Source of the DNA: Solibaculum mannosilyticum
Lineage (GTDB): Bacteria > Bacillota > Clostridia > Oscillospirales > Acutalibacteraceae
Reading direction: 5' to 3'
Assembly (NCBI RefSeq): GCF_015140235.1
Contig: NZ_AP023321.1
Location: 2,036,501 to 2,100,500, forward strand
Length of the DNA stretch: 64,000 nucleotides
Position 1 is the first letter of the stretch; each line of letters begins with the position of its first letter. Position numbers and translations under genes: made by a program. Under the pieces are notes generated by a model. It saw nothing but the letters and a program-made list of their open reading frames with translations. It was not told the origin of the DNA and made no database searches. Positions 7,595-29,865 of the stretch are shown here, piece after piece.

Positions 7595-8019
7595 GACTGC
7601 TCACCACCCGTTTCTTGCTTGGCAATAAACTTGCACTTAATGGGCAGCTTGTTGGCTGCCAGTCTCATAGCCTCGCGTGCAACCTCTTCGGACACGCCGG
7701 CGATTTCGAACATGACACGGCCGGGTTTTACAACGGCAACCCAGTATTCCGGGGAACCTTTACCGGAACCCATTCGGGTTTCAGCCGGCTTCTCAGTGAC
7801 CGGCTTATCCGGGAAGATCTTGATCCAAACCTGACCACCGCGCTTGGTGTAACGCGTCATGGCGACACGGGCGGCCTCGATCTGGTTGGACGTAATCCAG
7901 GCGGGTTCCAAAGCCTGTAGGCCATATTCACCATGGGAAACAAAGTTGCCGCGCATGGCTTTGCCCTTTAAACGGCCTCTCTGTACGCGGCGGTATTTGA
8001 CTCTTTTCGGTAACAGCAT
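7591..8019 (-). CDS. rplP: 50S ribosomal protein L16
   Basis: Binds near the A-site tRNA elbow. Its 142 residues begin [19 protein letters not shown] and include [18 protein letters not shown] and [19 protein letters not shown], hallmark L16 stretches. It follows rpsC by 2 nt. Confidence 0.97.
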
Positions 8020-8021
8020 GG

Positions 8022-8759
8022 TTATCTACGTCCTCCTTCCCGATTGTCTCTACGGGGAGCACGGCGGTCGCGGTTATCGCGGCGGTCACGACGGAAGTCG
8101 CGGTTGTCGCGGGGAGCGCGAGCGGTATTCTGACGGACGACTTCGCCCTGGTACAGCCAAACCTTTACGCCGATGCGGCCGTAGGTGGTGTTGGCCTCTG
8201 CAAAGCCATAATCGATGTCAGCGCGGATGGTCTGAAGAGGAATGGTTCCCTCATGATAATGCTCGGTACGGGCGATTTCTGCGCCGCCCAAACGGCCGGC
8301 TACGCTGATCTTGATGCCGCGGGCGCCCATTCTCATGGCGCGGCCGATGGACTGCTTCATCGCACGACGGAAAGAAATGCGCTTCTCCAGCTGCTGGGCG
8401 ATGTTCTCAGCCACCAACTGAGCGTTCAAATCGGGGTTCTTGACCTCGACGATGTTGATGGAAACCGGCTTTTTCAGGAACTTTTCGCACTGTTCGCGGA
8501 GCTTCTCAATCTCAGCGCCGCCCTTGCCGATGACCATACCGGGTTTCGCACAGTGGATGTGAATGGTAACGCGCGAGGAGTTGCGCTCTATTTCGATCTT
8601 GGGAACGCCAGCGGAATAAAGCTGCTTCTTGAGCATCTTACGCAAGTTGTAGTCCTCGACGAGGGTATCGCCGAAGTCCTTGTCGCTTGCGAACCAGCGG
8701 GAGTCCCAATCCTTAATAACGCCTACTCTGAGGCCGTGGGGATGAACTTTCTGGCCCAT
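8022..8759 (-). CDS. rpsC: 30S ribosomal protein S3 with arginine/aspartate-rich tail
   Basis: Part of the mRNA entry channel. The 245-residue protein has an N-terminal KH domain ([14 protein letters not shown]) and the S3 C-terminal domain ([19 protein letters not shown]). After the conserved core ends near residue 210 there is a ~32-residue low-complexity tail of R, D and N ([15 protein letters not shown] and similar). Such tails vary between species. A 120-nt gap with a 7-bp hairpin precedes it. Confidence 0.96.
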
Positions 8760-10466: not shown

Positions 10467-10760
10467 TTACATCATGCCTTCGAAGAACTCGATGGCCTTA
10501 GAATCAGGCTTCAGGGTGACGACAGCCTTTTTCCAGGAAGCGGTGTAGCCCTGGGTACGGCCCTGACGTCTCATTTTGCCGTTTTTGTGCATGGTGGTAA
10601 CCTTGGCGACCTTGACGCCGAACAGCTCTTCCACAGCACGGGCAATGTCAATCTTTGTGGCATCCTTGGCCACTTCGAAGGAGTATACCTTCTGCATAAT
10701 GCCAGCCATGCTCTTTTCGGTGATGACCGGGCGAATAATCACATCCTGTGCGATTTTCAT
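10467..10760 (-). CDS. rplW: 50S ribosomal protein L23
   Basis: Exit-tunnel protein that docks trigger factor and SRP, 97 residues. It contains DVIIRPVITEKSM and the C-terminal basic arm MRRQGRTQGYTASWKKAVVTL. Its ATG overlaps the rplD stop by one base, so translation is probably coupled. Confidence 0.97.
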   Translation of the reverse strand: MKIAQDVIIRPVITEKSMAGIMQKVYSFEVAKDATKIDIARAVEELFGVKVAKVTTMHKNGKMRRQGRTQGYTASWKKAVVTLKPDSKAIEFFEGMM

Positions 10761-11383
10761 TATGCATACACCTCCTCTAATTTTGCCACAGCATCCTTGA
10801 CGATAATGAACTTATCGTGATTGAGGATGTCGTAAACATTCAGGGTGTTGGTGAGGGTAGCCTCAACACCGGGGATGTTGCGGGTGGAATAATAGACGTT
10901 GTCGTTCTTGCCGGCCAGGACGATGAGAGCCTTGCCCTCGACGCCCAAGCTCTTGAGCATCTCGACGATGGTCTTGGTTTTGAAGCCTTCCACATCGATG
11001 TTGTCCACAACGATCAGGTTGTTGTCCTGAACCTTGGTGGAGAAGGCCGATTTCAGAGCCAGACGGCGCACCTTCTTATTGAGGGTGTAGCGGTAATCGC
11101 GGGGCTTGGGGCCCAAAGCGATGCCGCCGTGACGCCACTGGGGAGCGCGGGTAGAACCCTGACGGGCGCGACCAGTGCCCTTTTGTCTCCAGGGCTTTTT
11201 GCCGCCGCCGGAAACTTCCGAACGGGTCTTGGTGGACTGGGTGCCCTGGCGCTGATTGGCCAGATAGTTGACCACAACAGCATGCATAACATACTGGTTG
11301 GGCTCTATACCAAAAATGGAGTCGTTCAGCTCGATCTCGCCGACCTGAGCGCCAGCCATATTAACTACGGAAACCTTAGGCAT
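10760..11383 (-). CDS. rplD: 50S ribosomal protein L4
   Basis: Exit-tunnel protein of 207 residues. The loop [22 protein letters not shown] is the L4 tunnel extension. In enterobacteria L4 also regulates the S10 operon by attenuation; whether the leader hairpin here (12504-12538) responds to L4 is unknown. Confidence 0.97.
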
Positions 11384-15907: not shown

Positions 15908-17542
15908 ATGAAAAAGAACGATACCATTTTTGTCACCATCACCGGCGTGTCCTCTGAGGGGAACGGCATTGGCCGTCACGACGGCATGGCGGTATTTATC
16001 CCAGGCACCGCCTGCGGAGATGAAGTGGAGGCCTTGGTGGTCAAAGTGTGTAAGTCCTATGCCCATGGGAAACTTGTGCGGGTCCTGAAGCCTTCCCCCG
16101 ATCGTGTGGAATCCGACTGTCCTGTCTTTCTAAAGTGCGGCGGATGTGTCTATCGCCATATCTCCTATGAGGCGGAACGCCGTCTGAAAGCCCAGAGGGT
16201 TCAGGAGACCATCCGACGCATCGGCGGACTGGATATCCCTCAGCGTCCTATTCTCTCAGGGCCTCAGCAGTCTGGATACCGCAACAAAGCTCTGTATCCT
16301 GTAGGTTTGGATCAAAACGGCAAGTTGGCCATCGGATTTTATGCTCCCCGCAGCCATCGCATTGTCGACTGCCGGCAGTGCAGTCTTCAGCCTCCGGAGT
16401 TTTCCTCTCTGGTGAATGCCGTAGCTCACTGGATGACTCTCACAGGAGTTTCTCCTTATCGGCAGGAGTCTAATGAGGGATTGGTGCGCCACATCTATCT
16501 GCGCAAAGCCTTTGGAACCGGGCAGATCATGGCTTGTCTGGTCGTCAACGGCAAAAGGGTGCCGGATGAACCGATGCTTGTCAAGCTCCTCCGGGAGGCT
16601 GGGGAACCCAACGGATTAAAAAGCATCATCCTCAACCAGAATACCCGGCCGGACAACGTCATTCTGGGCAGACGCTGCCGCACACTATGGGGACAAGATA
16701 CCATTGAGGATACCTTATGTGATTTGCAGTTCTCCCTTTCCCCCCTCTCCTTTTATCAAGTGAATCGGGAGGCCGCCCAGATTCTTTACCGCCGGGCCGC
16801 GCAATATGCGCAACCGGAGGGCGCCCTTGTACTGGATCTCTATTGCGGCGCCGGCACCATCGGCCTCACGATGGCGCAAAAAGCCGAAAAGGTGATAGGG
16901 GTTGAGATCGTCCCTGACGCCATCCGGGATGCCGATAAAAACGCCGCTCTCAACGGCATTCAAAACGCTGAATTCTTGTGCGGCGATGCAGCTCAAGCCG
17001 CTGAGATGCTGGTTCAACGGGGACTTCATCCCGACGTGGTAGTACTGGATCCTCCCCGCAAAGGATGCAGTCCAGAGCTGCTCACCATCCTGGCAGACCG
17101 GTTTTCTCCCGACCGCATTGTCTATGTATCCTGTGACCCTGCCACTTTGGCTCGGGATCTCAAGATCTTAAACAGCAGCGGTTATCTTCCTCAGGAGGTT
17201 ACCCCTGTGGACATGTTCCCACGTACCAGCCATGTGGAGACGGTAGTACTTTTGTCCAAACTCAATACCAAGCAGCATATCGAGGTGGAGCTGAATCTGG
17301 ACGAGCTGGATTTAACTGCGGCGGAGAGCAAAGCCACCTATGAAGAGATTAAGGAGTATGTGCTGGAACATACAGGTCTAAAAGTCAGCCATCTCTATAT
17401 CGCTCAGGTTAAACAGAAGTATGGTATTATTGAGCGTGAGAACTACAACAAGCCAAAATCCGAGAATTCCAGGCAGCCGAAATGTCCGCCCGAAAAGGAA
17501 GCGGCCATTACGGAGGCATTGAAGCATTTTGGGATGATTTGA
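15908..17542 (+). CDS. rlmD: 23S rRNA (uracil-C5)-methyltransferase RlmD with an element-encoded C-terminal tail
   Basis: SAM-dependent m5U methyltransferase of 23S rRNA. Visible parts: N-terminal TRAM domain (1-60), iron-sulfur cysteines C71, C77, C80 and C155/C158, SAM fold starting VLDLYCGAGTIGL (308-320), DPPRKG (381-386) and catalytic C409 in VSCDP. The true RlmD core ends at HVETVVLLS (442-450). Residues 451-544 are extra, helical and charged (for example AESKATYEEIKEYVLEHTGL). They are unrelated to the methyltransferase fold and are attributed to an element inserted at codons 445/446 (see the mobile element). RlmD without the tail would be about 455 residues. Confidence 0.9.
   Translation: MKKNDTIFVTITGVSSEGNGIGRHDGMAVFIPGTACGDEVEALVVKVCKSYAHGKLVRVLKPSPDRVESDCPVFLKCGGCVYRHISYEAERRLKAQRVQETIRRIGGLDIPQRPILSGPQQSGYRNKALYPVGLDQNGKLAIGFYAPRSHRIVDCRQCSLQPPEFSSLVNAVAHWMTLTGVSPYRQESNEGLVRHIYLRKAFGTGQIMACLVVNGKRVPDEPMLVKLLREAGEPNGLKSIILNQNTRPDNVILGRRCRTLWGQDTIEDTLCDLQFSLSPLSFYQVNREAAQILYRRAAQYAQPEGALVLDLYCGAGTIGLTMAQKAEKVIGVEIVPDAIRDADKNAALNGIQNAEFLCGDAAQAAEMLVQRGLHPDVVVLDPPRKGCSPELLTILADRFSPDRIVYVSCDPATLARDLKILNSSGYLPQEVTPVDMFPRTSHVETVVLLSKLNTKQHIEVELNLDELDLTAAESKATYEEIKEYVLEHTGLKVSHLYIAQVKQKYGIIERENYNKPKSENSRQPKCPPEKEAAITEALKHFGMI
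17241..17244 (+). other. Left attachment junction (attL) in rlmD
   Basis: CGGT inside codons 445/446 (ACG GTA, T-V) of rlmD, within HVETVVLLS. It aligns in the same reading frame with CGGT at 29776-29779 in the recombinase gene (TCG GTG, S-V in QVESVALLS). The flanks are similar but not identical, as expected of hybrid serine-integrase sites. The exact 2-bp crossover cannot be fixed from one sequence. Confidence 0.65.
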
Positions 17543-17561
17543 GAATACAAATAATACGATA

Positions 17562-17605
17562 GAGAGGGCGAAGATGCTTTGTGAGGTGTCTTTGCCCTTT
17601 CTGTC
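17562..17605 (+). terminator. Likely terminator after rlmD tail
   Basis: GAGGGCGAAGATGC pairs, with G-U wobbles, with GTGTCTTTGCCCTTT around an 8-nt loop. The U-tract is short (TTTCT), so the strength is uncertain. Confidence 0.4.
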
Positions 17606-17630
17606 ATGTGGCGAAAACGCTTTGCTGCCG

Positions 17631-17679
17631 TTGACAGCATCACGATTATGAAGTATAATTTGTTATACAAATCATACTT
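17631..17679 (+). promoter_or_regulatory. Consensus promoter with 29-bp operator palindrome
   Basis: TTGACA (17631-17636) and TATAAT (17654-17659), 17-bp spacer: a perfect sigma-A promoter. Over the -10 and start site lies a 29-bp inverted repeat (17651-17679) with 14-bp arms, AAGTATAATTTGT and ACAAATCATACTT, having one mismatch around a central TAT. It controls the AbrB/ABC operon. Binding by the AbrB-like product of the first gene (autoregulation) is inferred. Confidence 0.85.
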
Positions 17680-17695
17680 TTAAGGAGGCGTTATA

Positions 17696-17911
17696 ATGGG
17701 CAAGCCGAAAGGAAAATATGCATGGACTGCTACGGTGGGAGAAAAGGGTCAGATTGTGATACCGAAACAGGCGCGAGAAATATTTGACATTCACCCGGGA
17801 GATACGCTGGTGCTTCTGGGGGATGAAAAAAGGGGGATTGCCATCCCGCCTAAAACCATGTTTTCACAATTTGCCGCGGCCGTATTTGAAACGGAACAGG
17901 AGGCGGACTGA
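17696..17911 (+). CDS. AbrB/SpoVT-type DNA-binding regulator
   Basis: 71 residues: a swapped-hairpin AbrB N-domain (ATVGEKGQIVIPKQAREIF, then GDTLVLLGDEKRGIAI) and a short C-terminus. Such proteins bind DNA as dimers or tetramers. GGAGG precedes the ATG. It is followed with no gap by an ABC ATPase (stop 17911, next start 17912), the place often taken by a GntR/YtrA regulator in similar transporter operons. Probably the operon's own repressor, acting at 17651-17679. Confidence 0.85.
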   Translation: MGKPKGKYAWTATVGEKGQIVIPKQAREIFDIHPGDTLVLLGDEKRGIAIPPKTMFSQFAAAVFETEQEAD

Positions 17912-18631
17912 ATGGCTCTTTGTGAGATCAAAAATTTGAGAAAAACCTATCCTTCTTTTACTCTATCTGAGTTGTCTTTTCAGCTGAACGCCGGACGGAT
18001 TGTGGGATTCATTGGCCGAAACGGAGCCGGAAAGACGACAACAATCAAATCTATGCTGGGACTTGTTCATCCTGATGGCGGCGAGATTGATTACTTCGGG
18101 CTGCCATTTTCCCAGCACGAGAAGCAGATAAAGCAGCGGATCGGGTATTCTACGGGAGCGGTCAACTACTATCCAAAGCGAAAAATAAAAGACATTGTTG
18201 CTGTCACAAGGATGTTCTTTGACACATGGAATGAAGAAGCGTATCGGGAATATCTTTCTTTATTTGCGCTGGACGAGAGCAAGATGCCTTCTGAACTCTC
18301 CGAAGGGATGCGGGTGAAGTTTAATTTGCTTTTGGCTCTGTCCCATAAATCGGAGATTCTCATTTTGGATGAGCCTACCAGCGGCCTTGATCCTTTCTCC
18401 CGTGATGAGCTGCTTGACATATTTGCAGAATTAAAAAAGCGTGGCGTTTCCATCCTGTTTTCCACCCACATCACCTCGGATATTGAGAAATGTGCCGACG
18501 ATATTCTGTATATTCGGGACGGAAAACTTGTAGCCAGCTACCCAAAAGAGGATTTCAGAAAAAACTGCTGTGAAGCAGGCGAAAGCATAGAAGAAGCAAT
18601 TTTGCGGATGGAAAGGAGTGCCAACATATGA
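17912..18631 (+). CDS. ABC transporter ATP-binding protein
   Basis: 239 residues. Walker A GRNGAGKTT (35-43), a Q-loop region near 85, a diverged signature LSEGMRVK and Walker B ILILDEPTSGLDP, followed by the switch region FSTHITSD. The sequence belongs to the CcmA/YtrB-like exporter ATPases that pair with small ABC-2 permeases. The substrate is unknown; related systems act in antimicrobial-peptide or drug resistance. It overlaps the permease gene by 4 nt. Confidence 0.9.
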   Translation: MALCEIKNLRKTYPSFTLSELSFQLNAGRIVGFIGRNGAGKTTTIKSMLGLVHPDGGEIDYFGLPFSQHEKQIKQRIGYSTGAVNYYPKRKIKDIVAVTRMFFDTWNEEAYREYLSLFALDESKMPSELSEGMRVKFNLLLALSHKSEILILDEPTSGLDPFSRDELLDIFAELKKRGVSILFSTHITSDIEKCADDILYIRDGKLVASYPKEDFRKNCCEAGESIEEAILRMERSANI

Positions 18632-19281
18632 TACGACTGTTGAAGAAAGAAATGAAGTTGGCTGCTTCGCCGCTATCTTATCTTTTTATTGTCTTTGGCC
18701 TGATGGCGTTTGTCCCCGGTTATCCTATCTTGGTCAGCGCCTTTTTCCTGTGCCTCGGCCTGTTCCAGTCCTTTCAGGCGGCGAGAGAGGCAAACGATAT
18801 CACCTATACGGCGCTCCTGCCGGTGGCGAAGGCAGATGTGGTCAGAGCAAAATACCTCTTTTGCGGATTTATCCAGCTTTGCTATTTTATGCTGACTGTC
18901 GCTGTAACTCTGATTCGTATGACTGTACTATCCGAAGCTGCGGTTTACAGGAGCAATCCGCTGATGAATGCCAATCTTGTCTATCTGGGCTTTGTGCTGC
19001 TGATTCTGGGGCTGTTCAATGGGATTTTTATTGGCGGCTTTTTTAGAACCGCCTATCAATTTGCCAAGCCCTTTGTAGCTTTTATTGTTGCAGCCTTTTT
19101 AGTTGTAGGACTTGGAGAGACGTTATTTCATATTCCGGGAATGGCGGCGCTGAATGCGTTCGGATTTGCACATATTGAATTGCAAGTATGCGTTCTTCTG
19201 CTTGGAGCGGGTCTGTATTTTTTACTCACCCTAATTTCCATACAGAAGGCGATGCGTGATTTTGAAAGGATCAATTTGTGA
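18628..19281 (+). CDS. ABC-2 type permease
   Basis: 217 residues with about six hydrophobic segments (near 15-50, 80-105, 118-140, 145-165, 185-205). It starts MIRLLKKEMKLAASPLSYLF and has an ANDITYTALLPVAKADVVRAK cytoplasmic segment typical of small ABC-2 permeases. Translation is coupled to the ATPase (ATGA overlap). It forms the membrane part of the exporter; the substrate is not predictable. Confidence 0.85.
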   Translation: MIRLLKKEMKLAASPLSYLFIVFGLMAFVPGYPILVSAFFLCLGLFQSFQAAREANDITYTALLPVAKADVVRAKYLFCGFIQLCYFMLTVAVTLIRMTVLSEAAVYRSNPLMNANLVYLGFVLLILGLFNGIFIGGFFRTAYQFAKPFVAFIVAAFLVVGLGETLFHIPGMAALNAFGFAHIELQVCVLLLGAGLYFLLTLISIQKAMRDFERINL

Positions 19282-19290
19282 CAATACAAT

Positions 19291-20076
19291 ATGGATAACG
19301 TAAATAACACTTTATATATTCCACTGTACGGTAAGGCAAAGGTCAGCCAAATGGGGATTATCCTTGAGGACAGGACTGCTGAAAAGATATGGGCGGAAAA
19401 TGCCGTACTACTGGGAAAGAAATCAAAGTCAAAATGGCTGGCCTATTTTATGGCAATGCGGGCAAGGGTTTTTGATGACTGGGTCAGAAAAATGCTTGCT
19501 ATGGATTCAGAAGTTCTTGTATTGCATATTGGATGTGGATTGGACAGCCGTGTACATCGTGTCGGGGCATCTGGCGTGCTTTGGTATGATCTGGATTTTC
19601 CGGAGGTCATCGCCCGGCGGAGAAAGTATTACAGCGAAGATGTCGATTATCACATGGTGGCTGGAGATGCAGCGCAGCCAGCATGGCTGGTAGAAATCCC
19701 GAGAAATCGGACAGCGGTGATCGTCATGGAGGGTATGGCCATGTATCTGCCCCCGGATGCGATGGAGCGGATGATGGCGATGTTGTCGCAGCATTTTTCT
19801 TCAGCTCACTTGATGATGGATGTGTATACAAACCTTGGAGCGAAACTATCAAAGTGGAAAAATCCCGTTACGGAAGTAGGGGTAACAACTGTTTACGGAT
19901 TGGAGCACCCTGCGGCACCGCTGGGGAAAAGCCAGATTCGCTATGTGCGGGAGCATTCTATGACTCCGCCAGAGTTGGTGAATCAGCTTACAGGAATGGA
20001 ACGTGTCCTCTTCAGATTCCTGTTTGCTGGAGGGACTGCAAAGAAACTGTATCGAATGTACGAGTATGAGTGGTAG
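19291..20076 (+). CDS. Class I SAM-dependent methyltransferase, LCM/TcmP-like
   Basis: 261 residues. The SAM motif VLHIGCGLDSRVHRV (about 76-90), the acidic YDLDFPEVI and the MEGMAMYL stretch are the pattern of the leucine carboxyl methyltransferase/TcmP family, which O-methylates carboxyl or hydroxyl groups of small molecules or proteins. It follows the ABC permease by 9 nt, so it is probably the last gene of the AbrB-ABC operon. A link between the methylated product and the exporter is inferred only from position. Confidence 0.8.
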   Translation: MDNVNNTLYIPLYGKAKVSQMGIILEDRTAEKIWAENAVLLGKKSKSKWLAYFMAMRARVFDDWVRKMLAMDSEVLVLHIGCGLDSRVHRVGASGVLWYDLDFPEVIARRRKYYSEDVDYHMVAGDAAQPAWLVEIPRNRTAVIVMEGMAMYLPPDAMERMMAMLSQHFSSAHLMMDVYTNLGAKLSKWKNPVTEVGVTTVYGLEHPAAPLGKSQIRYVREHSMTPPELVNQLTGMERVLFRFLFAGGTAKKLYRMYEYEW

Positions 20077-20160
20077 CGGTGATGATATGATTTATCAAAA
20101 CGACCGATATTTACGGAAATTGTTGCAGTGAATATTAGGAAGTAATGTCTGCAACAAAGA

Positions 20161-20215
20161 AAAACCGCTGCAATTTTCATCCCCACGCAGGATGGAAGTT
20201 GCAGCGGTTTTGTAT
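20161..20215. terminator. Strong bidirectional terminator
   Basis: Arms of 22 nt (20161-20182 and 20190-20211) pair with only two G-U wobbles around a 7-nt loop. They are flanked by AAAA on the left and TTTTGTATTTT on the right. It ends the AbrB-ABC-methyltransferase operon; on minus, the opposite U-tract could stop DUF6076 transcripts. Confidence 0.8.
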
Positions 20216-20232
20216 TTTCTGAGCATTGTTGT

Positions 20233-20254
20233 CAAACTGTATTTTTACAGTTTG
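20233..20254. repeat. Perfect 9-bp hairpin in the 20.2-20.6 kb non-coding stretch
   Basis: CAAACTGTA and TACAGTTTG around TTTT. The surrounding 20216-20599 holds no gene I trust. It has an open minus-strand frame (20177-20530) with a Pro/Arg/Ser-rich translation and no start signal, judged spurious. The stretch is G+C-rich with several short inverted repeats and may be a structured RNA or element-specific regulatory DNA. Confidence 0.4.
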
Positions 20255-20599
20255 GGTACCACTTGCGAAGAAAATAGGCGGGTGTCCAGAGGGGCGTAGT
20301 CCCTTTGGCTCTGGGTTTCCAATAGGGGCGAGCAGCACCCCTGTTGGCACACGATTTTCCGTAGGAAAGTCTAGTGTGTTATACCTTTGCTTCCGGCTGA
20401 CGCCGGGAAGGGGCTGACTGCGGCATCTGCGACTTGGGCGGATGGGCAGCAGGCAGGCACTTTTCGACGGCAGTAGGGCAGGCGGATTTTGTACGGTCAC
20501 GGACGAAATCGAGATTTGCACATAGGGCAAAATCCGCCTGCCCGGAAAAGGAAGCAGAGGTATATCATCCCCCGTCCCGCCGCAGCGACAACGCCCTTA

Positions 20600-21511
20600 T
20601 TAGTCTGCTTCCCCCTTGGATTTCTCACGGCTCTTGTAGACGTTATACTGGTTCTTGCACCGTGGGCTGCAAAAGGCTGCATTGGATCGGCTGCCCAAAA
20701 ACACTTTCTGGCAGTGCTTGCACAAGCGCAGGGGCTGGTCATCGTCCACCAGCATGAAGCTGAACATCATCTGGATACCCAGCAAAAGGGAGTGAAAATC
20801 CCAGTAGATGGTGGGCTTATCCAGTAACTCGATGTGGTAGCTGGGAGCGATCCCGCCAAATGCGGCTATGGCCTTGCGGTACAGTCCCCTTGCATCCTCG
20901 TCGGTGGAATCAAAGTCATTGTAGTACAGGATGGACGTAGACAGAGTAAACGCCCAGTCCTTGAACTGCTGGGCAACCCAGTCGTAGGGTTCCGCATATT
21001 CCCGCTGGAAGCTCATGTTCTTCGCCATCGGCTCGTCCATGAAAGTCATGGTCAGGGCAACCATCGTCCAGTCTCCCGACACATTCCACGTGGATTCAAT
21101 GCCTTTCTTCACCAAGTCCAGCTGGTCAAAGGGATAAAACAGGGACAGGTATTGGTCTGTCACCATGGATTCTTCCTTGATGAAGTGGTTTTTCGGCAGA
21201 TATACCGCCTCATAGTCCATAAAGGTCGGCGTGGTGGGCAGAGCGGTCATCAGCCCCAGCAGGCCGTACCGGGTGACGAACTCCATCACCGCCTTTTCCA
21301 CTTCTGCTTCCGGCTTGCGCCCCATCATCAGCATCCCCACATTCAGCGCATCCAGCACAATGTTCGGGACCTCTTTCAGCGGATTGTAGACATCCGGTTT
21401 TGCATTCTTGCCGGGGGTAATATACCGTTTGCCATCTTTCGCTGTTTTCAGTTCATAATGATCGTACCGCACCCAATGGGAACGGGACTGTTCAAACAAA
21501 TTTTTCATCAT
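20600..21511 (-). CDS. DUF6076-type protein with C-terminal zinc finger
   Basis: 303 residues. A largely helical N-terminal two-thirds without known catalytic motifs is followed by a treble-clef/zinc-ribbon-like end: CKHCQKVFLGSRSNAAFCS and then CKNQY, i.e. CxxC...CxxxC near 266-290, similar to DUF6076/CGNR-type fingers. Proteins like this recur in clostridial mobile elements. It lies 31 nt after the sigma-like gene on the same strand. Function unknown; DNA or RNA binding through the zinc finger is possible. Confidence 0.7.
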   Translation of the reverse strand: MMKNLFEQSRSHWVRYDHYELKTAKDGKRYITPGKNAKPDVYNPLKEVPNIVLDALNVGMLMMGRKPEAEVEKAVMEFVTRYGLLGLMTALPTTPTFMDYEAVYLPKNHFIKEESMVTDQYLSLFYPFDQLDLVKKGIESTWNVSGDWTMVALTMTFMDEPMAKNMSFQREYAEPYDWVAQQFKDWAFTLSTSILYYNDFDSTDEDARGLYRKAIAAFGGIAPSYHIELLDKPTIYWDFHSLLLGIQMMFSFMLVDDDQPLRLCKHCQKVFLGSRSNAAFCSPRCKNQYNVYKSREKSKGEAD

Positions 21512-21542
21512 ACACGCCCTTTCTCCTTAATCGTCCCAATTA

Positions 21543-22394
21543 TCAGGGGCGGTTTTTCTTTTTTCTGCGCTTGGTCTTGTTCTCCCGCCGGATCACGGCA
21601 TCTTTCCCCTGTTTCTTTGCGATTTTCGAGTATTCCTCCAAAAACTGATGTTCCCGCAAGGTCAAGCTACCGCCATGCTCCTGCTTACCGCACAGATGGT
21701 CATACATCTGGCGCTGCAATTTCTTGTGGATGGTTTTCCGCAGTTTGCGGATGTTGCGGTCAGACTGCCCACGCACAGCGGCAAGCCGGGTGGTGCTGTA
21801 CAGCCGCAAAGAGAGGAAATACAGAACTTCCTTATGTTCCTCGCTCAGTTCCTCCACCATGCGGGAAACAAAGGCATCGGCGGTCAGGTTGTGCATCTCA
21901 TAGGGGCAGTCAAACAGGATGTCCAGAAAGTTCCCGGCCATCAGCTGCCGGTATGCGGGGTTGTTCATCCATCGGGGAATGAGCTTCGGTTCCGGCGCCG
22001 CCTGATATTCCATCGGCACATCCCCACGGAGATTTTCGTGGTCCCGCTCCCTGCGCTCCCGATTCTGATCCAGCTTGTCCCATTCCCCTACGACGACCCG
22101 GAAGTCCTTTTCGGTGCGGGCTGCTTCCTCCAGCCGCCGCACAGCTTCCGCCCGAATTTCCCGTTTCAGTCGCTTTTCGCTGACCGAGGCGGCTTCTTCT
22201 TCCTCGGTTTCCAGTTCCGCTTCATAATCGACGGGATGCTCGTCCTGCTCCAGCTCACTTTCCAGTTCTGCCAGACGTTCTTCTGCAAGCGCCTGCTCCA
22301 GCGTTTCCACCGCCGCATCAGCGCCTGTCCCATCGTCCCATCCGGTGAAGCCACCCTCGGTATCCAGAAGTTCGTTATCAGACAGATACGCCAT
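21543..22394 (-). CDS. Sigma-70 region-4-like helix-turn-helix protein of the element
   Basis: 283 residues. The N-terminal ~120 residues are very acidic and coiled (repeated E/D/L, for example LESELEQDEHPVDYEAEL). The stretch LSEEHKEVLYFLSLRLYSTTRLAAVRGQSDRNIRKLRKTI (about 190-230) resembles a sigma-70 region 4 HTH. The C-terminus is a run of K/R. A role as element-specific transcription factor is inferred. It is divergent from the primase operon. Confidence 0.65.
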   Translation of the reverse strand: MAYLSDNELLDTEGGFTGWDDGTGADAAVETLEQALAEERLAELESELEQDEHPVDYEAELETEEEEAASVSEKRLKREIRAEAVRRLEEAARTEKDFRVVVGEWDKLDQNRERRERDHENLRGDVPMEYQAAPEPKLIPRWMNNPAYRQLMAGNFLDILFDCPYEMHNLTADAFVSRMVEELSEEHKEVLYFLSLRLYSTTRLAAVRGQSDRNIRKLRKTIHKKLQRQMYDHLCGKQEHGGSLTLREHQFLEEYSKIAKKQGKDAVIRRENKTKRRKKKNRP

Positions 22395-22478
22395 GACCTC
22401 ACCTCTCTAAAAAAATATTTTGTGATTTTTCAAAAATGGTTCCGTTTTGCACCCCGGATTTCTCCTATTAGTGAAAGG

Positions 22479-22505
22479 GTAATCTAAAATCAGATTACTT
22501 TTTCC
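22479..22505 (+). terminator. Short terminator-like hairpin ahead of the primase operon
   Basis: GTAATCT/AGATTAC with a 6-nt loop followed by seven Ts, in the 218-bp divergent region between the sigma-like gene and the CHC2 gene. It could stop read-through or attenuate the primase operon if transcription starts upstream; I could not place a clear promoter. Confidence 0.5.
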
Positions 22506-22612
22506 GGAACTATATCAACATTATACAACGACTGCGCCGGAAGCGCAAGAAAGAGAGGTTCTATGGTAAAAAACGGCACCCAGTATTTTCTTTCGGAAGG
22601 GAGTGAGCAGTA

Positions 22613-23233
22613 ATGACATGGTTTGAGCTGATAAAACAAGTTGTCCGGGTTCCGGAGGTTGCGGCCTATTATGGGCTGCAAGTCAGCCGAAACGGCATGG
22701 CCTGTTGTCCCTTCCACGATGACTGGCATCCCAGCATGAAGCTGAACGAGAGGTACTTTTACTGTTTCGGCTGCGGAGCCACCGGCGATGTGATTGACCT
22801 GGTGGCGAGGTTGTTCGGCCTGAGCAGCTACGAGGCGGCTAAAAAGCTGTCTTATGACTTCGGGATTGACCCGGACAAGCCACCAGCGGCAATCGCCATG
22901 CCCAGACCAAAACGTCCTCTGCTGAAAGCATACCGGCAGGAGGAGGTTCGCTGCCTGCGGGTATTGTGCGATTATCTGCATCTTCTGGAACGCTGGAAGG
23001 TACAGCACGCACCTAAGAGACCGGAAGATAATCTGGATGATCGGTTTGTGGAAGCCTGCCAGATGCTGGACTATGTGGAGTATCTGGCAGATTTGCTGAT
23101 TGCCGCCGAGCTGGAACAGCGGGTAAAAATTGTAGAAATGCTGAACAAGGATGGCCTGATCGCCGGTTTGGAGGAACGGTTAAAGAGATTGGAAAAGGAG
23201 GAAGTCACCCATGAAGAAAAACAAGCAGCCTGA
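22613..23233 (+). CDS. CHC2 zinc-finger primase-like protein
   Basis: 206 residues. A DnaG-type CHC2 zinc finger is clear: C32-x2-H35 in CCPFHDDWHPSMK and C51-x2-C54 in YCFGCGATGDVIDLV. There is no TOPRIM domain, so it is probably an accessory or half-primase working with the downstream helicase in element replication. The C-terminus is helical. The start follows GGAGTGAGCAGT. It overlaps the next gene by 23 nt. Confidence 0.85.
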   Translation: MTWFELIKQVVRVPEVAAYYGLQVSRNGMACCPFHDDWHPSMKLNERYFYCFGCGATGDVIDLVARLFGLSSYEAAKKLSYDFGIDPDKPPAAIAMPRPKRPLLKAYRQEEVRCLRVLCDYLHLLERWKVQHAPKRPEDNLDDRFVEACQMLDYVEYLADLLIAAELEQRVKIVEMLNKDGLIAGLEERLKRLEKEEVTHEEKQAA

Positions 23234-24590
23234 CGGGATGCCCGTTTGGTTTGATGGAAAAAGCATCAACGAAGCCCTGTTTTGTGAGGAGTTCTTGCAG
23301 ACGCACAAGATCATCTTCACAAACGGGGCTTTTTTCACGCCCGAAGGCCGTGTGACCGATGAGCTGCCTTTGCGGGGAGAGATTTTTGAGGAGCTGAAAT
23401 GCTGTGCGGTCAGCAACATTCCCCGCAAAATCAGCAACATTGTGGAGCTGATGAAGCTGGCGGCGCTGGCGGAGGATTTTCCCCCGGAGCCGGACCGGAT
23501 TCACCTTTCCAACGGGACACTTTTTCTGGATGGGACCTTTGCGAAGGGAAAGCCGAAAATCGTCCGCAACCGTTTCCCCGTGGCCTACAACCCCAACGCT
23601 CCGGAACCTGTCCTCTGGCTGCAATTTCTGGATGGCCTGCTCTACCCGGAGGACATCCCCACCTTGCAGGAATATATCGGCTACTGCCTGATCCCCAGCA
23701 ATAAGGGACAGCGGATGATGGTGATTAAGGGCAGCGGCGGCGAAGGAAAGTCGCAGATCGGCGCTGTGCTGGGAACTTTGTTCGGCTCCAACATGAAGGA
23801 CGGCAGCATCGGGAAAATATCCGAGAACCGTTTTGCACGTGCCGATTTGGAACATATCCTCCTGTGCGTGGATGACGATATGCGGATGGAGGCCCTTCGC
23901 CAAACCAACTATGTGAAATCCATCGTCACTGCCCAGGGTAAGATGGATTTGGAACGCAAGGGCAAGCAGAGCTATCAGGGATGGATGTGCGCCCGGCTGC
24001 TGGCCTTCTCCAACGGAGATTTGCAGGCGCTGTTTGACCGCAGCGACGGATTTTACCGCCGCCAGCTGGTGCTGACCACGAAAGAAAAACCAGATGGCCG
24101 TGTGGATGATCCCGACCTTGCCGAGAAGATGAAAGCCGAGGTGGAGGGTATTCTGCTGTGGGCTTTTGAGGGATTGCAGCGGCTGGCCGCCAACAACTTC
24201 AAATTCACCGAAAGTGAGCGCACCAGAGGGAATCGGGAGGCAGTCAAACGGGACAATAACAATGTCTATGATTTTCTGGATTCTGACGGGTATGTTCGCC
24301 TGAAAGCCGATTTATCTGCCAGCTCCAAAGAGCTGTATGAGGCATACCAGATTTACTGCACCGAGAACAACCTGCCTGCCCTGAAACCCCGCAGCTTCAG
24401 CGAAGCCCTGATCGCCTGCCAGAGCCGCTACAATCTGGAATACTGCAACAATGTGACCAACGCAGCCGGACGGCGGGTGCGTGGCTTTCTGGGGATTGCG
24501 GTACTGGTGAGAAATCATATATCAGTGTTTTCCGGTGATTCGATGCGTACGTACGTACCGGAAGATGTGCCGGAGGAATGGCGGCGCTGA
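23211..24590 (+). CDS. Phage/plasmid P4-type SF3 helicase (D5-like)
   Basis: 459 residues. The D5-like N-terminal region is followed by an SF3 helicase core: Walker A GSGGEGKS (174-181), Walker B ILLCVDDDM (about 224-232), and motif C around LLAFSNGDLQALFDRSDGFYRR. Together with the CHC2 protein it probably unwinds and primes the element circle. The start at 23211 has AAGGAGG upstream. Its last codons run through a CGTACGTACG repeat (see 24545-24609). Confidence 0.9.
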   Translation: MKKNKQPDGMPVWFDGKSINEALFCEEFLQTHKIIFTNGAFFTPEGRVTDELPLRGEIFEELKCCAVSNIPRKISNIVELMKLAALAEDFPPEPDRIHLSNGTLFLDGTFAKGKPKIVRNRFPVAYNPNAPEPVLWLQFLDGLLYPEDIPTLQEYIGYCLIPSNKGQRMMVIKGSGGEGKSQIGAVLGTLFGSNMKDGSIGKISENRFARADLEHILLCVDDDMRMEALRQTNYVKSIVTAQGKMDLERKGKQSYQGWMCARLLAFSNGDLQALFDRSDGFYRRQLVLTTKEKPDGRVDDPDLAEKMKAEVEGILLWAFEGLQRLAANNFKFTESERTRGNREAVKRDNNNVYDFLDSDGYVRLKADLSASSKELYEAYQIYCTENNLPALKPRSFSEALIACQSRYNLEYCNNVTNAAGRRVRGFLGIAVLVRNHISVFSGDSMRTYVPEDVPEEWRR

Positions 24591-24609
24591 GCCATGTACG
24601 TACGTACGC
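24545..24609. repeat. 14-bp perfect inverted repeat made of GTAC units
   Basis: GCGTACGTACGTAC (24545-24558) and GTACGTACGTACGC (24596-24609) lie 37 nt apart across the helicase stop codon. Each arm is itself a run of the palindrome GTAC. The position between the replication genes and the mobilization region suggests a protein-binding site, for instance for replication initiation. Confidence 0.75.
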
Positions 24610-24743
24610 TTTGATTGACCGTTGTTCTCCCTTTTATAGCAATTCAGCGGCTATGTCAGTCAGAATCACTGGTCAAATCCCCATGCTAAATCAAGGCAAG
24701 TGGAAATCGAAAAGTATTTGCCTATTGGAAGAAATCATTTTGC

Positions 24744-24805
24744 GAAACCGTGCTTCTCGCCCCGGTGAACCGGGTGCATGGAATCATGGGGAAATGCACG
24801 GTTTC
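24744..24805. other. Candidate origin of transfer (oriT)
   Basis: GAAACCGTGC (24744-24753) and GCACGGTTTC (24796-24805) form a perfect 10-bp inverted repeat. It encloses a second hairpin, CCCGG-TGAA-CCGGG (24761-24774). It lies in a gene-free stretch (24591-24980) just upstream of the relaxase operon, the usual place of oriT. The downstream GTCAAGTCACACGTAACGG may hold the nick. A nick site was not identified. Confidence 0.5.
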
Positions 24806-24911
24806 AAGTCAAGTCACACGTAACGGAAAAGTCGGAAGGTGCGACCTATGGGCAGGACATCACACCGGCAATTCTGAACGGATTTGGTGACAAGGAGATT
24901 TTTCACCACAC

Positions 24912-24954
24912 AGCGAAGCGGTTATGCCAGAGGGCGTGCCAGCTTCGCTTTTTT
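24912..24954 (+). terminator. Terminator ahead of the relaxase operon
   Basis: AGCGAAGC (24912-24919) pairs with GCTTCGCT (24942-24949), followed by TTTTTT. It lies 27 nt before the small mobilization gene, so it either isolates the operon or attenuates it. Confidence 0.7.
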
Positions 24955-24980
24955 ATCAAGTAAATTTAGGAGGATTTTTG

Positions 24981-25202
24981 ATGATGACGGTACGCAACGA
25001 GATTAAGGCACAGATCGTCCGGGCCGGATATACCATGCAGGAGGTAGTTGACCGGCTCCATGAGGAATACGACTGGTCGGACAGTGTTTCCAACCTGTCC
25101 GCCAAACTCCAGCGGGAATCCATCCGCTACAAGGAGGTTGTGGAGCTGGCCGATGTGCTGGGATATGACCTGATCTGGCAGAAACGGAGAGACAGAGTAT
25201 GA
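24981..25202 (+). CDS. Small HTH-like mobilization partner
   Basis: 73 residues starting MMTVRNEIKAQIVRAGYTMQ, with GGAGGATTTTTG before the ATG at 24981. The frame opens earlier (24924), but that part falls in the terminator. The pattern of short helices (VVDRLHEEYDW, SVSNLSAKLQRESIRYKEVVELADVLGYDL) looks like an XRE-like/DUF6471-type helix-turn-helix. It overlaps the MobV gene by 4 nt, so it is likely a relaxosome accessory or a repressor of mob. Function inferred. Confidence 0.75.
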   Translation: MMTVRNEIKAQIVRAGYTMQEVVDRLHEEYDWSDSVSNLSAKLQRESIRYKEVVELADVLGYDLIWQKRRDRV

Positions 25203-26179
25203 GCAAACCACAGTATGCTATTCTTCGCTTTGCCAAGTACAAGGGACCGGAAATTGGGAACATCGAAGCCCACAATGAGCGCACCAAAGAGAAATACGCT
25301 AGCAACCCCGATGTGGACATCAGCAGGAGCAAGTATAATTTCCATCTGATCGAGCCAGAACGAAAATATCGTGCGGAGGCGGAGCGGCAGATCAAAGAAG
25401 CCGGTTGCCGTACCCGGTCAGACAGTGTTCGAGTCGTGGAAGCCCTGGTAACTGCCACACCGGAGTTCTTTCAGAGAAAGAAGAGATCTGAGATCAGAGC
25501 CTATTTTCAAGAGGCGCTGACCTTTCTCCAGCAAAACCAAGACCCCAAAACAATCATATCCGCCGTGGTGCATATGGACGAGAAAACGCCCCATATGCAC
25601 CTTTCTTTTGTCCCGCTGACTGTGGATGGCAGGCTCAGCGCCAAGGAGATCGTGGGAAATAAGAAAAAGCTGACCCAGTGGCAGGACAAGTTCTGGGAAC
25701 ACATGGTGCGGAAATATCCCGACCTGGAGCGTGGGGAAAGCGCCAGCCAGACCGGACGTGACCACATCCCGCCCAGAGTGTTCAAAGAGATGACCCGCCT
25801 GACCAAGCAAAAAGCCAAGCTGGAAGAACTGCTGGCCGGTATTGGAGCCTTTAACGCAAAAAGCAGAGCTGCCGAGATTGCGGCTCTGCTGGATCAGTAT
25901 ATCCCTGCGGTGGAGCAGATGCACAGCACCATGAAGAAGTATCAGGTGGCATTTACGGAAACCACCGTGGAAAACAAAAAGCTGAAACAGGAGAACGCTC
26001 AGCTGGAGCAATCCCTAGAGAAAGCAACCCAAGAAAGCACTTTGAAGCAGCTGGCCGATGCCAAGCTGCGGCGGGACTATGCTGACGCTGTGGCGGTGCT
26101 GGATCGCATTCCTAAAGAAGTGCTGGCAGAGTATATGCACAAACCGGACAGACGGAGGATAAATGCCTATGATAGATGA
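25199..26179 (+). CDS. MobV-family relaxase (Pre/Mob)
   Basis: 326 residues. Motif I HNER (H25) and motif III HMDEKTPHMH (125-134), with the metal-binding histidines, identify the MobV/Pre family. These enzymes nick oriT and stay bound to the 5' end, allowing transfer by a helper conjugative element. The C-terminal third is a coiled coil (QENAQLEQSLEKATQ and following). It shows that the 12.5-kb element is mobilizable. Confidence 0.92.
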   Translation: MSKPQYAILRFAKYKGPEIGNIEAHNERTKEKYASNPDVDISRSKYNFHLIEPERKYRAEAERQIKEAGCRTRSDSVRVVEALVTATPEFFQRKKRSEIRAYFQEALTFLQQNQDPKTIISAVVHMDEKTPHMHLSFVPLTVDGRLSAKEIVGNKKKLTQWQDKFWEHMVRKYPDLERGESASQTGRDHIPPRVFKEMTRLTKQKAKLEELLAGIGAFNAKSRAAEIAALLDQYIPAVEQMHSTMKKYQVAFTETTVENKKLKQENAQLEQSLEKATQESTLKQLADAKLRRDYADAVAVLDRIPKEVLAEYMHKPDRRRINAYDR

Positions 26180-26345
26180 GTGGAACGGCCTTGCCGTTTT
26201 ACTGGCAGATATGATTGAAAAATATGCTGGGGAACTGGACTTAGATGCTTTGCCCGCTCCAATGTTTCCCGAGGAGAAAGCCGCAAAACACAACACAACT
26301 AAAAATGTTTACAAAGAAAATGTTGAAACGCAAAAAGCGGCGTGA
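26163..26345 (+). CDS. Small hypothetical protein after the relaxase
   Basis: 60 residues (or 58 from the second ATG, 26169) overlapping the relaxase stop by 17 nt. GGAGG at 26155-26159 fits the second ATG better. Acidic, starting IDEWNGLAVLLADMIEKYAGEL, with no recognised domain. Its 3' end overlaps the promoter of the DUF262 gene. Real expression is uncertain. Confidence 0.5.
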   Translation: MPMIDEWNGLAVLLADMIEKYAGELDLDALPAPMFPEEKAAKHNTTKNVYKENVETQKAA

Positions 26346-26351
26346 TACAAT
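26323..26351 (+). promoter_or_regulatory. Promoter of the DUF262 gene
   Basis: TTGAAA (26323-26328) and TACAAT (26346-26351) with a 17-bp spacer. The transcript would start near 26358, leaving a ~115-nt leader with the hairpin at 26374-26410. Confidence 0.7.
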
Positions 26352-26373
26352 AATCGTGTGGTAATTGTCCAAA

Positions 26374-26410
26374 CTCAATATAGGGAGAGCAGGAGCCTCC
26401 CTATATTGAG
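26374..26410 (+). repeat. 14-bp perfect hairpin in the DUF262 leader
   Basis: CTCAATATAGGGAG (26374-26387) and CTCCCTATATTGAG (26397-26410) around a 9-nt loop, with no U-tract after it. It could be an operator, an mRNA stabiliser or a target of a regulator of the DUF262 gene. Confidence 0.65.
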
Positions 26411-26471
26411 GTATATTAGTTTGATGTGATGAACGAGCGGATGTCATAATCAGAAAGAGAAGGTGTTGAGG

Positions 26472-28115
26472 ATGGATAATCAAGTATCTCAGTATCAGTC
26501 GCTGCCCGGCAATATGCTTTATAACAATCTTATTTCAAATATTGAACAAGGCCAGATAAAGATTCCCCAGTTTCAGCGGAAGTTTGTCTGGAGTATTGAG
26601 GAAACTGCCGGATTGATCGACAGCATCCTGAAAGGCTACCCAATTGGCACCTTTATTATTTGGGAGACAAATGACCGCCTTCGCTCCGTTCGTAATATTG
26701 GAAATTTTCAATTCCCGGATACGCCTGATGGAAATACTGTCCAGTATGTTCTGGATGGGCAGCAGCGTATGACCAGTTTATATGTGGCACTTCGAGGCGC
26801 AAAGTTAGAAGATGACAACGGACAGATTACCGACTACTCTGAGATTTATGTGAATCTTTCCGCAAAATCCGATGATTCTCTTGTGCTTACCGATAAAACA
26901 GGGTATCAGGACACACAAATCATCCGCTTCGTCGATCTTCTCAATGGCTCCCTCAGTTTGCTTTTGAGTAAGTATAACGACTATATTGATACGATCGATG
27001 CGTATCGTAAAGCGGTACAGACCTACCAGTTTTCAAAGATCGATGTAAAAAACGCTCCCATTGAAGTGGCAACCGAAATTTTCACAAGAATCAATATCGG
27101 CGGCAAACCCTTGACGCTGTTTGAGATCATGGCAGCAAAAACTTATGATGAAGCAAAGAAATTTGACTTATCTGAGAAATACGATGCACTTATTGAAAAT
27201 CTTTCAAATGTTGACTACGACACAATCTCCAGCTCCACTGTTTTGCAGGCTGTCTCTGTATGTCTCGTGAAAGAATGCACCAGAAAAAGCATTCTGAACC
27301 TGGAAAAACAAAAATTTATCGATGTATGGCCCCGAGTTGAGAGTGCGTTTGAGTCAGCTGTAGATTATTTGCGCAGCTTTTATAAAATTCCTGTTTCACA
27401 ACTTCTTCCGTATGATGCTTTACTGGTTCCGTTTACCTACTATTTCTTCCATCACAAAGATATTCCGGCAGGTTTGCAGCAGGATCTTCTTCAGGATTAC
27501 TTCTGGCGCTGCGTACTAACTTCAAGATTTTCGAGTGCTGCGGAAACAAAATTAACACAAGATATGAAGCTGATTGACAAAATTTTGAACAATGAGCAGC
27601 CCGTTTACGATGTTCCGATCGATACTTCTGTTGAGTTTATTCGGAATCACGGTTATTTTTCTGCCGGTTCAGCTTTCATCAAGGGTATGCTTTGCCTGCT
27701 TGCTTACCAGCAGCCAGTCTCGTATCAGAATAATGGCATTGTTCACATTGCGAATGATTGGCTGAAACAGGCAAACAGTAAAAACTACCATCATTTTTTC
27801 CCTAAAGCATATATGCGTAAGGCACACCCAGAAGTTGATGATTGGCTGGTAAATCATATCGGCAATATTACAATCGTGGACGATTTTCTGAATAAGCGCT
27901 CGATTCGTGACAGAGCACCATCCAAATATATCAGCGAATATATGGCCCAAAATCCGAATCTTGAAAAAGCGCTGAATTCCCATTTAATAAGTGCCGCCTC
28001 AGGCTGGGGCGTTTTGGAAGATGATTATCAAACATTTTTCCAAAACAGGTTAAACTGGTTCTGCGAGGAACTGAACAAACGAGTGATTGTTACACAGGCG
28101 GATAGAACAGCATAA
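26472..28115 (+). CDS. DUF262/DUF1524-type (GmrSD-like) single-chain protein, likely anti-phage
   Basis: 547 residues. The N-terminal DUF262 part has IPQFQRKFVW (31-40) and the DGQQRMTS nucleotide-binding motif (95-102). The C-terminal part has an HNH-like DUF1524 pattern, HHFFPKAY (440-447) then NHIGNITIVDDFLNKRS with N461/N465. This is the layout of GmrSD-type IV modification-dependent restriction proteins, but other DUF262 proteins differ in target. The ATG at 26472 has AGAAGG upstream; an in-frame GTG at 26463 is less likely. More A+T-rich than the neighbouring mob genes, which suggests separate acquisition. Cargo next to the recombinase. Confidence 0.8.
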   Translation: MDNQVSQYQSLPGNMLYNNLISNIEQGQIKIPQFQRKFVWSIEETAGLIDSILKGYPIGTFIIWETNDRLRSVRNIGNFQFPDTPDGNTVQYVLDGQQRMTSLYVALRGAKLEDDNGQITDYSEIYVNLSAKSDDSLVLTDKTGYQDTQIIRFVDLLNGSLSLLLSKYNDYIDTIDAYRKAVQTYQFSKIDVKNAPIEVATEIFTRINIGGKPLTLFEIMAAKTYDEAKKFDLSEKYDALIENLSNVDYDTISSSTVLQAVSVCLVKECTRKSILNLEKQKFIDVWPRVESAFESAVDYLRSFYKIPVSQLLPYDALLVPFTYYFFHHKDIPAGLQQDLLQDYFWRCVLTSRFSSAAETKLTQDMKLIDKILNNEQPVYDVPIDTSVEFIRNHGYFSAGSAFIKGMLCLLAYQQPVSYQNNGIVHIANDWLKQANSKNYHHFFPKAYMRKAHPEVDDWLVNHIGNITIVDDFLNKRSIRDRAPSKYISEYMAQNPNLEKALNSHLISAASGWGVLEDDYQTFFQNRLNWFCEELNKRVIVTQADRTA

Positions 28116-28124
28116 GGAAGTTTT

Positions 28125-29827: not shown

Positions 29828-29865
29828 AAGAAGCCGGTATCTTTTGGATACCGGCTTCTTATTTT
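29828..29865. terminator. Bidirectional terminator after the recombinase
   Basis: AAGAAGCCGGTATC and GATACCGGCTTCTT (14-bp perfect stem, 5-nt loop) followed by ATTTTTGTTTTTT. It serves the recombinase (plus) and probably the convergent flippase (minus). It is presumably the original rlmD terminator. Confidence 0.85.

Follow-up and report, generated by a model that had tools for sequence, protein, structure and literature searches.

Organization of the rlmD locus

The open reading frame at 15908–17542 (+) of the window, i.e., the whole 64,000-nucleotide stretch of Solibaculum mannosilyticum DNA analysed here, encodes a protein of 544 residues that consists of RlmD followed by a C-terminal extension (the tail) of ~100 residues. 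In an NCBIfam profile search, residues 16–444 matched the RlmD model TIGR00479 with a score of 415.6 bits. No Pfam or NCBIfam model matched the last ~100 residues, and the sole profile match of the tail is phrog_27283, where the function is given as unknown. The host part of rlmD (15908–17239, +; residues 1–444) contains the TRAM, Fe-S, and methyltransferase domains covered by TIGR00479, and its DNA differs by host up to a GAR codon. The element-encoded end (17240–17542, +) supplies residues 445–544 and the stop; DNA comparison and AlphaFold2 divide it into a strand (TVVLLSK), a linker, and a three-helix domain.

A second RlmD-family paralog, which lacks both the TRAM domain and the tail, is located outside the element at 46142–47362 (+). 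It shares 38% identity with the tailed RlmD and stops shortly past VLLQ. The preliminary description had regarded this paralog as showing the normal end of the protein, and the untailed RlmDs of related genomes (n = 23) bear this out, since they also end near the HVE motif, with the stop no more than ~17 residues beyond it. Tailed proteins were present as well among the RlmD loci taken from related genomes (L135, L143, and L152).

The 3′ end of rlmD is the insertion site of a 12.5-kb MobV/GmrSD integrative mobilizable element (IME) at about 17237–29774. Pfam assigned its cargo genes (17696–20076, +) to a MazE/AbrB-like protein, an ABC transporter ATPase, an ABC-2 permease, and a leucine-carboxyl-methyltransferase-like protein. 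These are followed by two genes whose products Pfam did not match (20600–22394, −), a CHC2 zinc-finger primase-like protein with a D5/DUF5906 helicase-primase (22613–24590, +; Pfam), a MobV relaxase (25199–26179, +; PF01076, NF041497), and a GmrSD-type restriction protein (26463–28115, +; PF03235). The GmrSD-type gene lies between the relaxase and the recombinase, i.e., the element bears defence cargo. A Pfam scan of the larger element ORFs matched no T4SS parts. A 16-bp sequence, TTGTCCAAACTCAATA, occurs identically at the start of the tail (17252–17267) and in the intergenic region before the GmrSD gene (26365–26380). The second copy, perhaps a regulatory one, continues into the inverted repeat CTCAATATAGGGAG...CTCCCTATATTGAG.

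Attachment sites and exchange of gene ends

The element's own integrase adjoins the rlmD attachment site: the recombinase gene ends at attR and rlmD ends at attL. The crossover dinucleotide GA is located at 17237–17238 (+) in attL, within the codon of the invariant Glu444, and at 29772–29773 (+) in attR, with a spacing of 12,535 bp between the two sites. Among three near-identical elements in different hosts, this GA of the Glu codon is the sole dinucleotide common to attL and attR. An alignment of attL DNA from many loci leads to the same position, as near-identical tails start at the codon after the conserved GAR, and the rlmD genes upstream of these tails are otherwise diverged in DNA. Both lines of evidence point to the GA of the Glu codon, so that the element-encoded part of RlmD comprises residues 445–544. 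The GT of the Val codon that follows was also considered as the crossover, since L085, L033, and L104 differ up to there; it was ruled out because the attR of L202 reads AT at this position and that of L203 reads GC, and GA alone fits all. The preliminary description had proposed an element-encoded tail at 17243–17542 and had singled out residues 451–544. The origin is confirmed, and DNA comparison moves the start to 17240 (Thr445), directly past the crossover; hence the last strand of RlmD, TVVLLSK, is itself supplied by the element.

The large serine recombinase (28125–29822) contains the PF00239 (Resolvase), PF07508 (Recombinase), and PF13408 (Zn-ribbon) domains. Its element part (28125–29774, +; residues 1–550) was delimited by Pfam and by near-identical elements, which have the same sequence up to GTTGAA. 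The remaining segment (29775–29822, +) is the displaced native rlmD end, SVALLSRKTENPYSE followed by the stop; indeed, the C-terminus QQVESVALLSRKTENPYSE looks like that of an RlmD. Two recombinases are 98.2% (L202, Angelakisella massiliensis, same contig as L018) and 97.7% (L203, same contig as L010) identical to that of the window. Their DNA equals that of the window up to GTTGAA and then diverges immediately, so that after the same VE they end with NICLLAKAPKAKPQNDSFLHGKN and TACLLIREE, respectively, each followed by a stop, in place of SVALLSRKTENPYSE. Most integrated recombinases elsewhere likewise have short, variable endings. Given the GA crossover at 29772–29773, the last 15 recombinase residues are a displaced RlmD end. 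Both junctions, rlmD–tail and recombinase–host end, are in frame. The gene ends thus changed places on integration: on RlmD, the tail replaced SVALLSRKTENPYSE, and on the recombinase, SVALLSRKTENPYSE replaced the tail.

Two hairpins flank the exchanged ends. One with a 22-bp stem (17558–17605, +; −33.8 kcal/mol, z −8.05) is located just 3′ of the tail and is probably a transcript end supplied by the element. The other, with a T run (29828–29860, +; −24.5 kcal/mol, z −8.53), follows the recombinase gene and is most likely the native rlmD terminator. With an element hairpin after the tail and a probable rlmD terminator after the recombinase, the terminators were probably moved along with the gene ends.

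Recombinases that carry the tail

According to the preliminary description, the tail would belong to the recombinase in the circular form. Although the circle is inferred for the window element, recombinases that read into a tail in one frame exist in other contigs (L007, L035, L061, L161, L163, L206, L208, L213, L216, and L217), including the viral contigs L088, L090, and L091. The recombinases of L206 and L208 run in frame into another tail instead of a short ending, as expected of tandem arrays. Fusions in one frame, in viral contigs and in tandem arrays, thus support the assignment of the tail to the recombinase of the circle. Moreover, in L069, L088, L090, L091, and L093, a second, upstream recombinase has the tail domain permanently, without an att-like junction. 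These tandem serine recombinase pairs are found mostly in viral contigs, and the downstream recombinase of each pair has an att-like junction before its tail.

We therefore consider, with a probability of roughly 0.83, that the tail forms the C-terminus of the large serine recombinase encoded by the element, and that integration severs this domain from the recombinase and attaches it to RlmD. The proposed mechanism is as follows. attP would lie within the recombinase gene, at the boundary of codons 550 and 551 (between VE and TVVLLS). The Glu codon close to the 3′ terminus of rlmD would act as attB, and recombination of the two sites would exchange the 3′ ends in frame. In the integrated state, as seen in the window, RlmD comprises residues 1–444, the element strand, the linker, and the three-helix domain (544 aa), and the recombinase comprises residues 1–550 and 15 host residues (565 aa). 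In the excised state, seen in other elements and inferred for that of the window, RlmD would have about 459 aa and its native end, and the recombinase, predicted to have 650 aa, would carry the tail. The C-terminus of the integrase would accordingly change with its own integration state, and the tail would most likely assist the excised-state recombinase, e.g., in attP binding or integration. A role as an RDF on that form is disfavoured, as synthetic integrase–RDF fusions lower integration (PMC5737554).

Structure and conservation of the tail

AlphaFold2 predicted the tailed RlmD (52 alignment rows) with a mean pLDDT of 92, the core reaching about 97. In the model, the strand at 444–451 is formed by element-encoded residues. 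It is followed by a linker at residues 454–473 (17267–17326, +), which is predicted to be disordered (pLDDT below 50), and by helices 478–489, 495–504, and 528–540 (17339–17527, +). A tail-only model (pLDDT 75) contained the same helices. The structure prediction called for in the preliminary description has thus yielded three helices, within residues 478–540, behind a disordered linker. Its wording of the tail as helical and charged (30 of 100 residues are charged) holds for residues 478–540 and not for the tail as a whole. A fold search of the tail model against the PDB and BFVD gave no match below E = 1, and these searches offered no fold match in support of DNA binding by the tail. A weak Pfam Ribosomal_L23 match was obtained for 18 of 65 tails (best 5e-4; A1 alignment), and eS24 matched at 0.034; an L23/S24-like ribosomal fold was taken as chance, the models showing no strands in that region.

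The Fe-S cysteines and the region of the catalytic Cys409 are invariant in 52/52 tailed RlmDs. With the fold and catalytic residues kept, an RlmD that carries the tail is, judging from the model, probably still active. The predicted integrity of the core, together with the disordered linker, agrees with the view that the tail is a passive by-product, i.e., simply the sequence to the right of attP, without consequence or selection on RlmD. Decayed tails, with stops in G066, G120, and G056 and a truncation in L005, also fit this view. However, most tails are full length and intact. The median dN/dS was 0.065 for 64 distinct RlmD-fused tails (pairwise NG86; 233 pairs with dS of 0.1–1) and 0.080 for all 83 tails (pairwise NG86); the value of about 0.07 covers the 94-codon tail. 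These ratios argue that the tail is under strong purifying selection, a constraint that is assignable to neither the integrated nor the excised state.

The tail domain is not limited to RlmD and integrating recombinases. Lone proteins of ~66–75 aa with this domain are encoded in Firmicutes genomes (L229, 4952–5161; L230, 4947–5174; L231, 4945–5157), and the domain occurs at 30–35% identity on plasmids of Burkholderia, Paraburkholderia, Thalassospira, and a Tenericutes bacterium (loci including L236 and L238). Neither the lone nor the plasmid copies had a credible Pfam or NCBIfam match. For a tail protein with a start of its own in the window element, no in-frame ATG is available before residue 543, although GTG codons could conceivably serve. 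The tail is a conserved domain of ~70 residues common to recombinases and RlmD. That it also exists on its own as small proteins, and as a fixed part of some recombinases, further weighs against the by-product view. As an account of the tail wherever it occurs, this view is excluded; for the tail on RlmD, we consider it less likely than not.

Distribution of tailed RlmDs

Tailed loci were found in 32/150 genomes of the family sample (31/115 good genomes), in 56/295 genomes of the order sample (51/226 good genomes), and, under a stricter cut-off than in these two, in 9/398 genomes of the phylum sample. They are widespread yet patchy, and their frequency in the good genomes of the family and order samples shows that the tail on RlmD is not a chance extension. 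That tailed RlmDs are present in about a fifth of the order-sample genomes might suggest that clostridia possess this form of RlmD natively, irrespective of the element. However, tail and RlmD core vary independently of each other: near-identical tails are attached to RlmDs only 34–49% identical to that of the window. In addition, the tail is fused to recombinases in viral contigs, and untailed orthologs are the majority. A native extension was therefore rejected as scarcely credible.

The surroundings were checked in 22 tailed genomes. Tails in many clostridial RlmDs without adjacent mobile genes, which the preliminary description had named as counter-evidence, were not the overall pattern. 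A recombinase of the window type lies 11–16 kb downstream on the same contig in 8 of the 22 (L010, L012, L014, L018, L024, L031, L037, and L053). Two further genomes have a serine recombinase ~30 kb away: in L084, it is of the second type described below, about 29 kb downstream and beside a second tail, and in L067, it is a distant one, located about 30 kb downstream. Three look like element remnants, as L082 has retained a truncated recombinase end alone, and in L016 and L065 the tail is intact and ordinary genes follow within 10 kb. The other nine were assigned to none of these groups, in several cases because the contig ends.

Several observations concern the use of other sites or by other elements. 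A small protein (...CVELKFADGSMISIDTVAVENE...) is encoded directly after the tail in two genomes (L016, from 4053; L030, from 10287); it is possibly the left-end gene of another element family that uses the rlmD site. Tails are also located behind non-RlmD genes in L034 (8828–10285) and L070 (7173–10022), perhaps as secondary-site insertions.

In practical terms, the ~545-aa RlmDs of gut clostridia should be read as hybrids marking an inserted element, with the tail as an inexpensive sequence tag by which such insertions can be located.

A second recombinase type and the role of the tail

Recombinases of a second type, which share about 26% identity with that of the window, were found in pAPRE01 (an Anaerococcus plasmid), L045, L005 (a Streptococcus gallolyticus phage record), and G445. 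These four recombinases adjoin the same tail family, which is read out of frame with them; in pAPRE01 and L045, the recombinase stop lies about 28–46 bases inside the tail. In these elements, the tail is open in the frame that carries on from RlmD; rum and the tail of Streptococcus suis YS162 form one 545-residue ORF. Since the recombinase is in the other frame, the tail could be a recombinase domain in these four cases only with a frameshift, and a role on the recombinase alone does not explain its conservation there. A reading of the tail as just a displaced recombinase domain is thus insufficient.

The tail is common to elements whose recombinases share only 26–28% identity. Compared with the window, L014 and L012 are 82–85% identical in the recombinase and 97–98% in the tail, and G135 is 84% and 72% identical, respectively. 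The identities of recombinase and tail do not track each other, which suggests that elements using the rlmD attachment site exchange tails.

These features invite a reading in which selection acts on the tail chiefly in its fusion to RlmD, or in its capacity as an element protein driven by the rlmD promoter, and its presence on some recombinases is secondary. Because the element finishes rlmD with its own domain, this domain would then be made only while the element is integrated, e.g., holding down excision or transfer, or tuning RlmD. This would account for tails that are in the frame of RlmD at the RlmD-fused loci and out of frame with the four recombinases of the second type, for the strong purifying selection, and for tails common to such distant recombinases. 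The element also restores the last strand of RlmD and places a hairpin of its own behind the tail, and intact tails persist at L016 and L065. On the other hand, the permanent tails on partner recombinases and the many in-frame attP-type fusions indicate a role on the recombinase, the measured selection can be attributed to neither state, and, with a second RlmD-type paralog in the genome, the benefit of tuning RlmD is less obvious. On balance, selection mainly through RlmD is doubtful.

The most likely interpretation, held with moderate confidence, is that the tail benefits the recombinase of the excised state and that RlmD tolerates it as a folded appendage, on which it might also serve a second function. 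The assignment to the recombinase is weakened by the intact tails with ordinary downstream genes at L016 and L065, the conserved out-of-frame tails, and the lack of a DNA-binding fold match. A more speculative proposal, which we regard as unlikely, is that the domain reports the integration state via RlmD. When integrated, the domain would be produced solely from the rlmD promoter, fused to RlmD, and would control the element in trans or alter RlmD; when excised, the domain, on the recombinase, would enable integration, and unrelated recombinases would share a swappable tail cassette at one site.

If the proposed exchange operates as outlined, the domain composition of the integrase would depend on integration, and the removed domain would pass intact to a near-universal host enzyme. 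A state-dependent integrase of this kind could explain, in a simple and testable way, why such elements behave in a one-way manner.

Comparison with known systems

The principle of the exchange is already known (PMC4701971; Mx8; BPs, PMC4557955). In Myxococcus phage Mx8 (Magrini et al. 1999, cited in PMC4701971), attP lies in the integrase gene, and integration replaces the integrase C-terminus and alters activity. Mx8 resembles the window element in both the position of attP and the replaced C-terminus, whereas its integrase is a tyrosine integrase and that of the window element is a large serine recombinase. We know of no domain that Mx8 gives to a conserved housekeeping enzyme. In mycobacteriophage BPs and its relatives, attP is located in a phage gene, the C-terminus of the product differs between the free and integrated states, and immunity depends on integration (PMC4557955). 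The split gene of BPs encodes a repressor, and its logic is one of immunity; in the window, it is the recombinase gene that is split, and the portion it loses ends up on a host enzyme.

SCC elements also employ large serine recombinases (CcrA/CcrB/CcrC), which target the 3′ end of rlmH, a 23S rRNA methyltransferase gene; to our knowledge, tail donation has not been described for them. Unlike SCC, the window element is inserted in rlmD, and its recombinase matched the SCC CcrB model NF047343 with 204.5 bits, far below the 900-bit family cut-off. A literature search for systems with attP within the integrase gene, beyond rumA, BPs, and Mx8, found nothing closer.

The closest parallel is provided by streptococci, in which IMEs with a serine integrase in rumA have been described (PMC5357655), and in which rumA and the serine integrases of ICEs exchange 3′ ends reciprocally, each of the two proteins changing its reading frame (Ambroset et al. 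2016; PMC4701971). The window element shares with them the target (rumA is rlmD), a single large serine integrase, and an att site within the integrase gene, and the window likewise shows attR inside that gene and the 3′-end exchange (PMC4701971). It differs in being a 12.5-kb MobV IME of a gut clostridium, and both of its exchanges preserve the reading frame and transfer a folded domain, in contrast to the frame change of the streptococcal ICEs (PMC4701971). Among the recombinases compared here, a frame change was seen only with the second, pAPRE01-like type, and the window recombinase is about 26% identical to the rumA-type recombinases of pAPRE01 and of the S. gallolyticus phage record.

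What is new is the in-frame transfer of a conserved, unclassified domain of ~70 residues that is under strong purifying selection and common to unrelated recombinases, one type of which reads out of frame with it, along with its recurrence as a permanent C-terminal domain of partner recombinases and as lone ~70-aa proteins. The conjugative plasmid pAPRE01 (L002) itself carries two tails, at 8001–8282 and 10582–10863, the second of which is preceded by VDMFPITIGVETVALLS, a sequence resembling a piece of an rlmD end.
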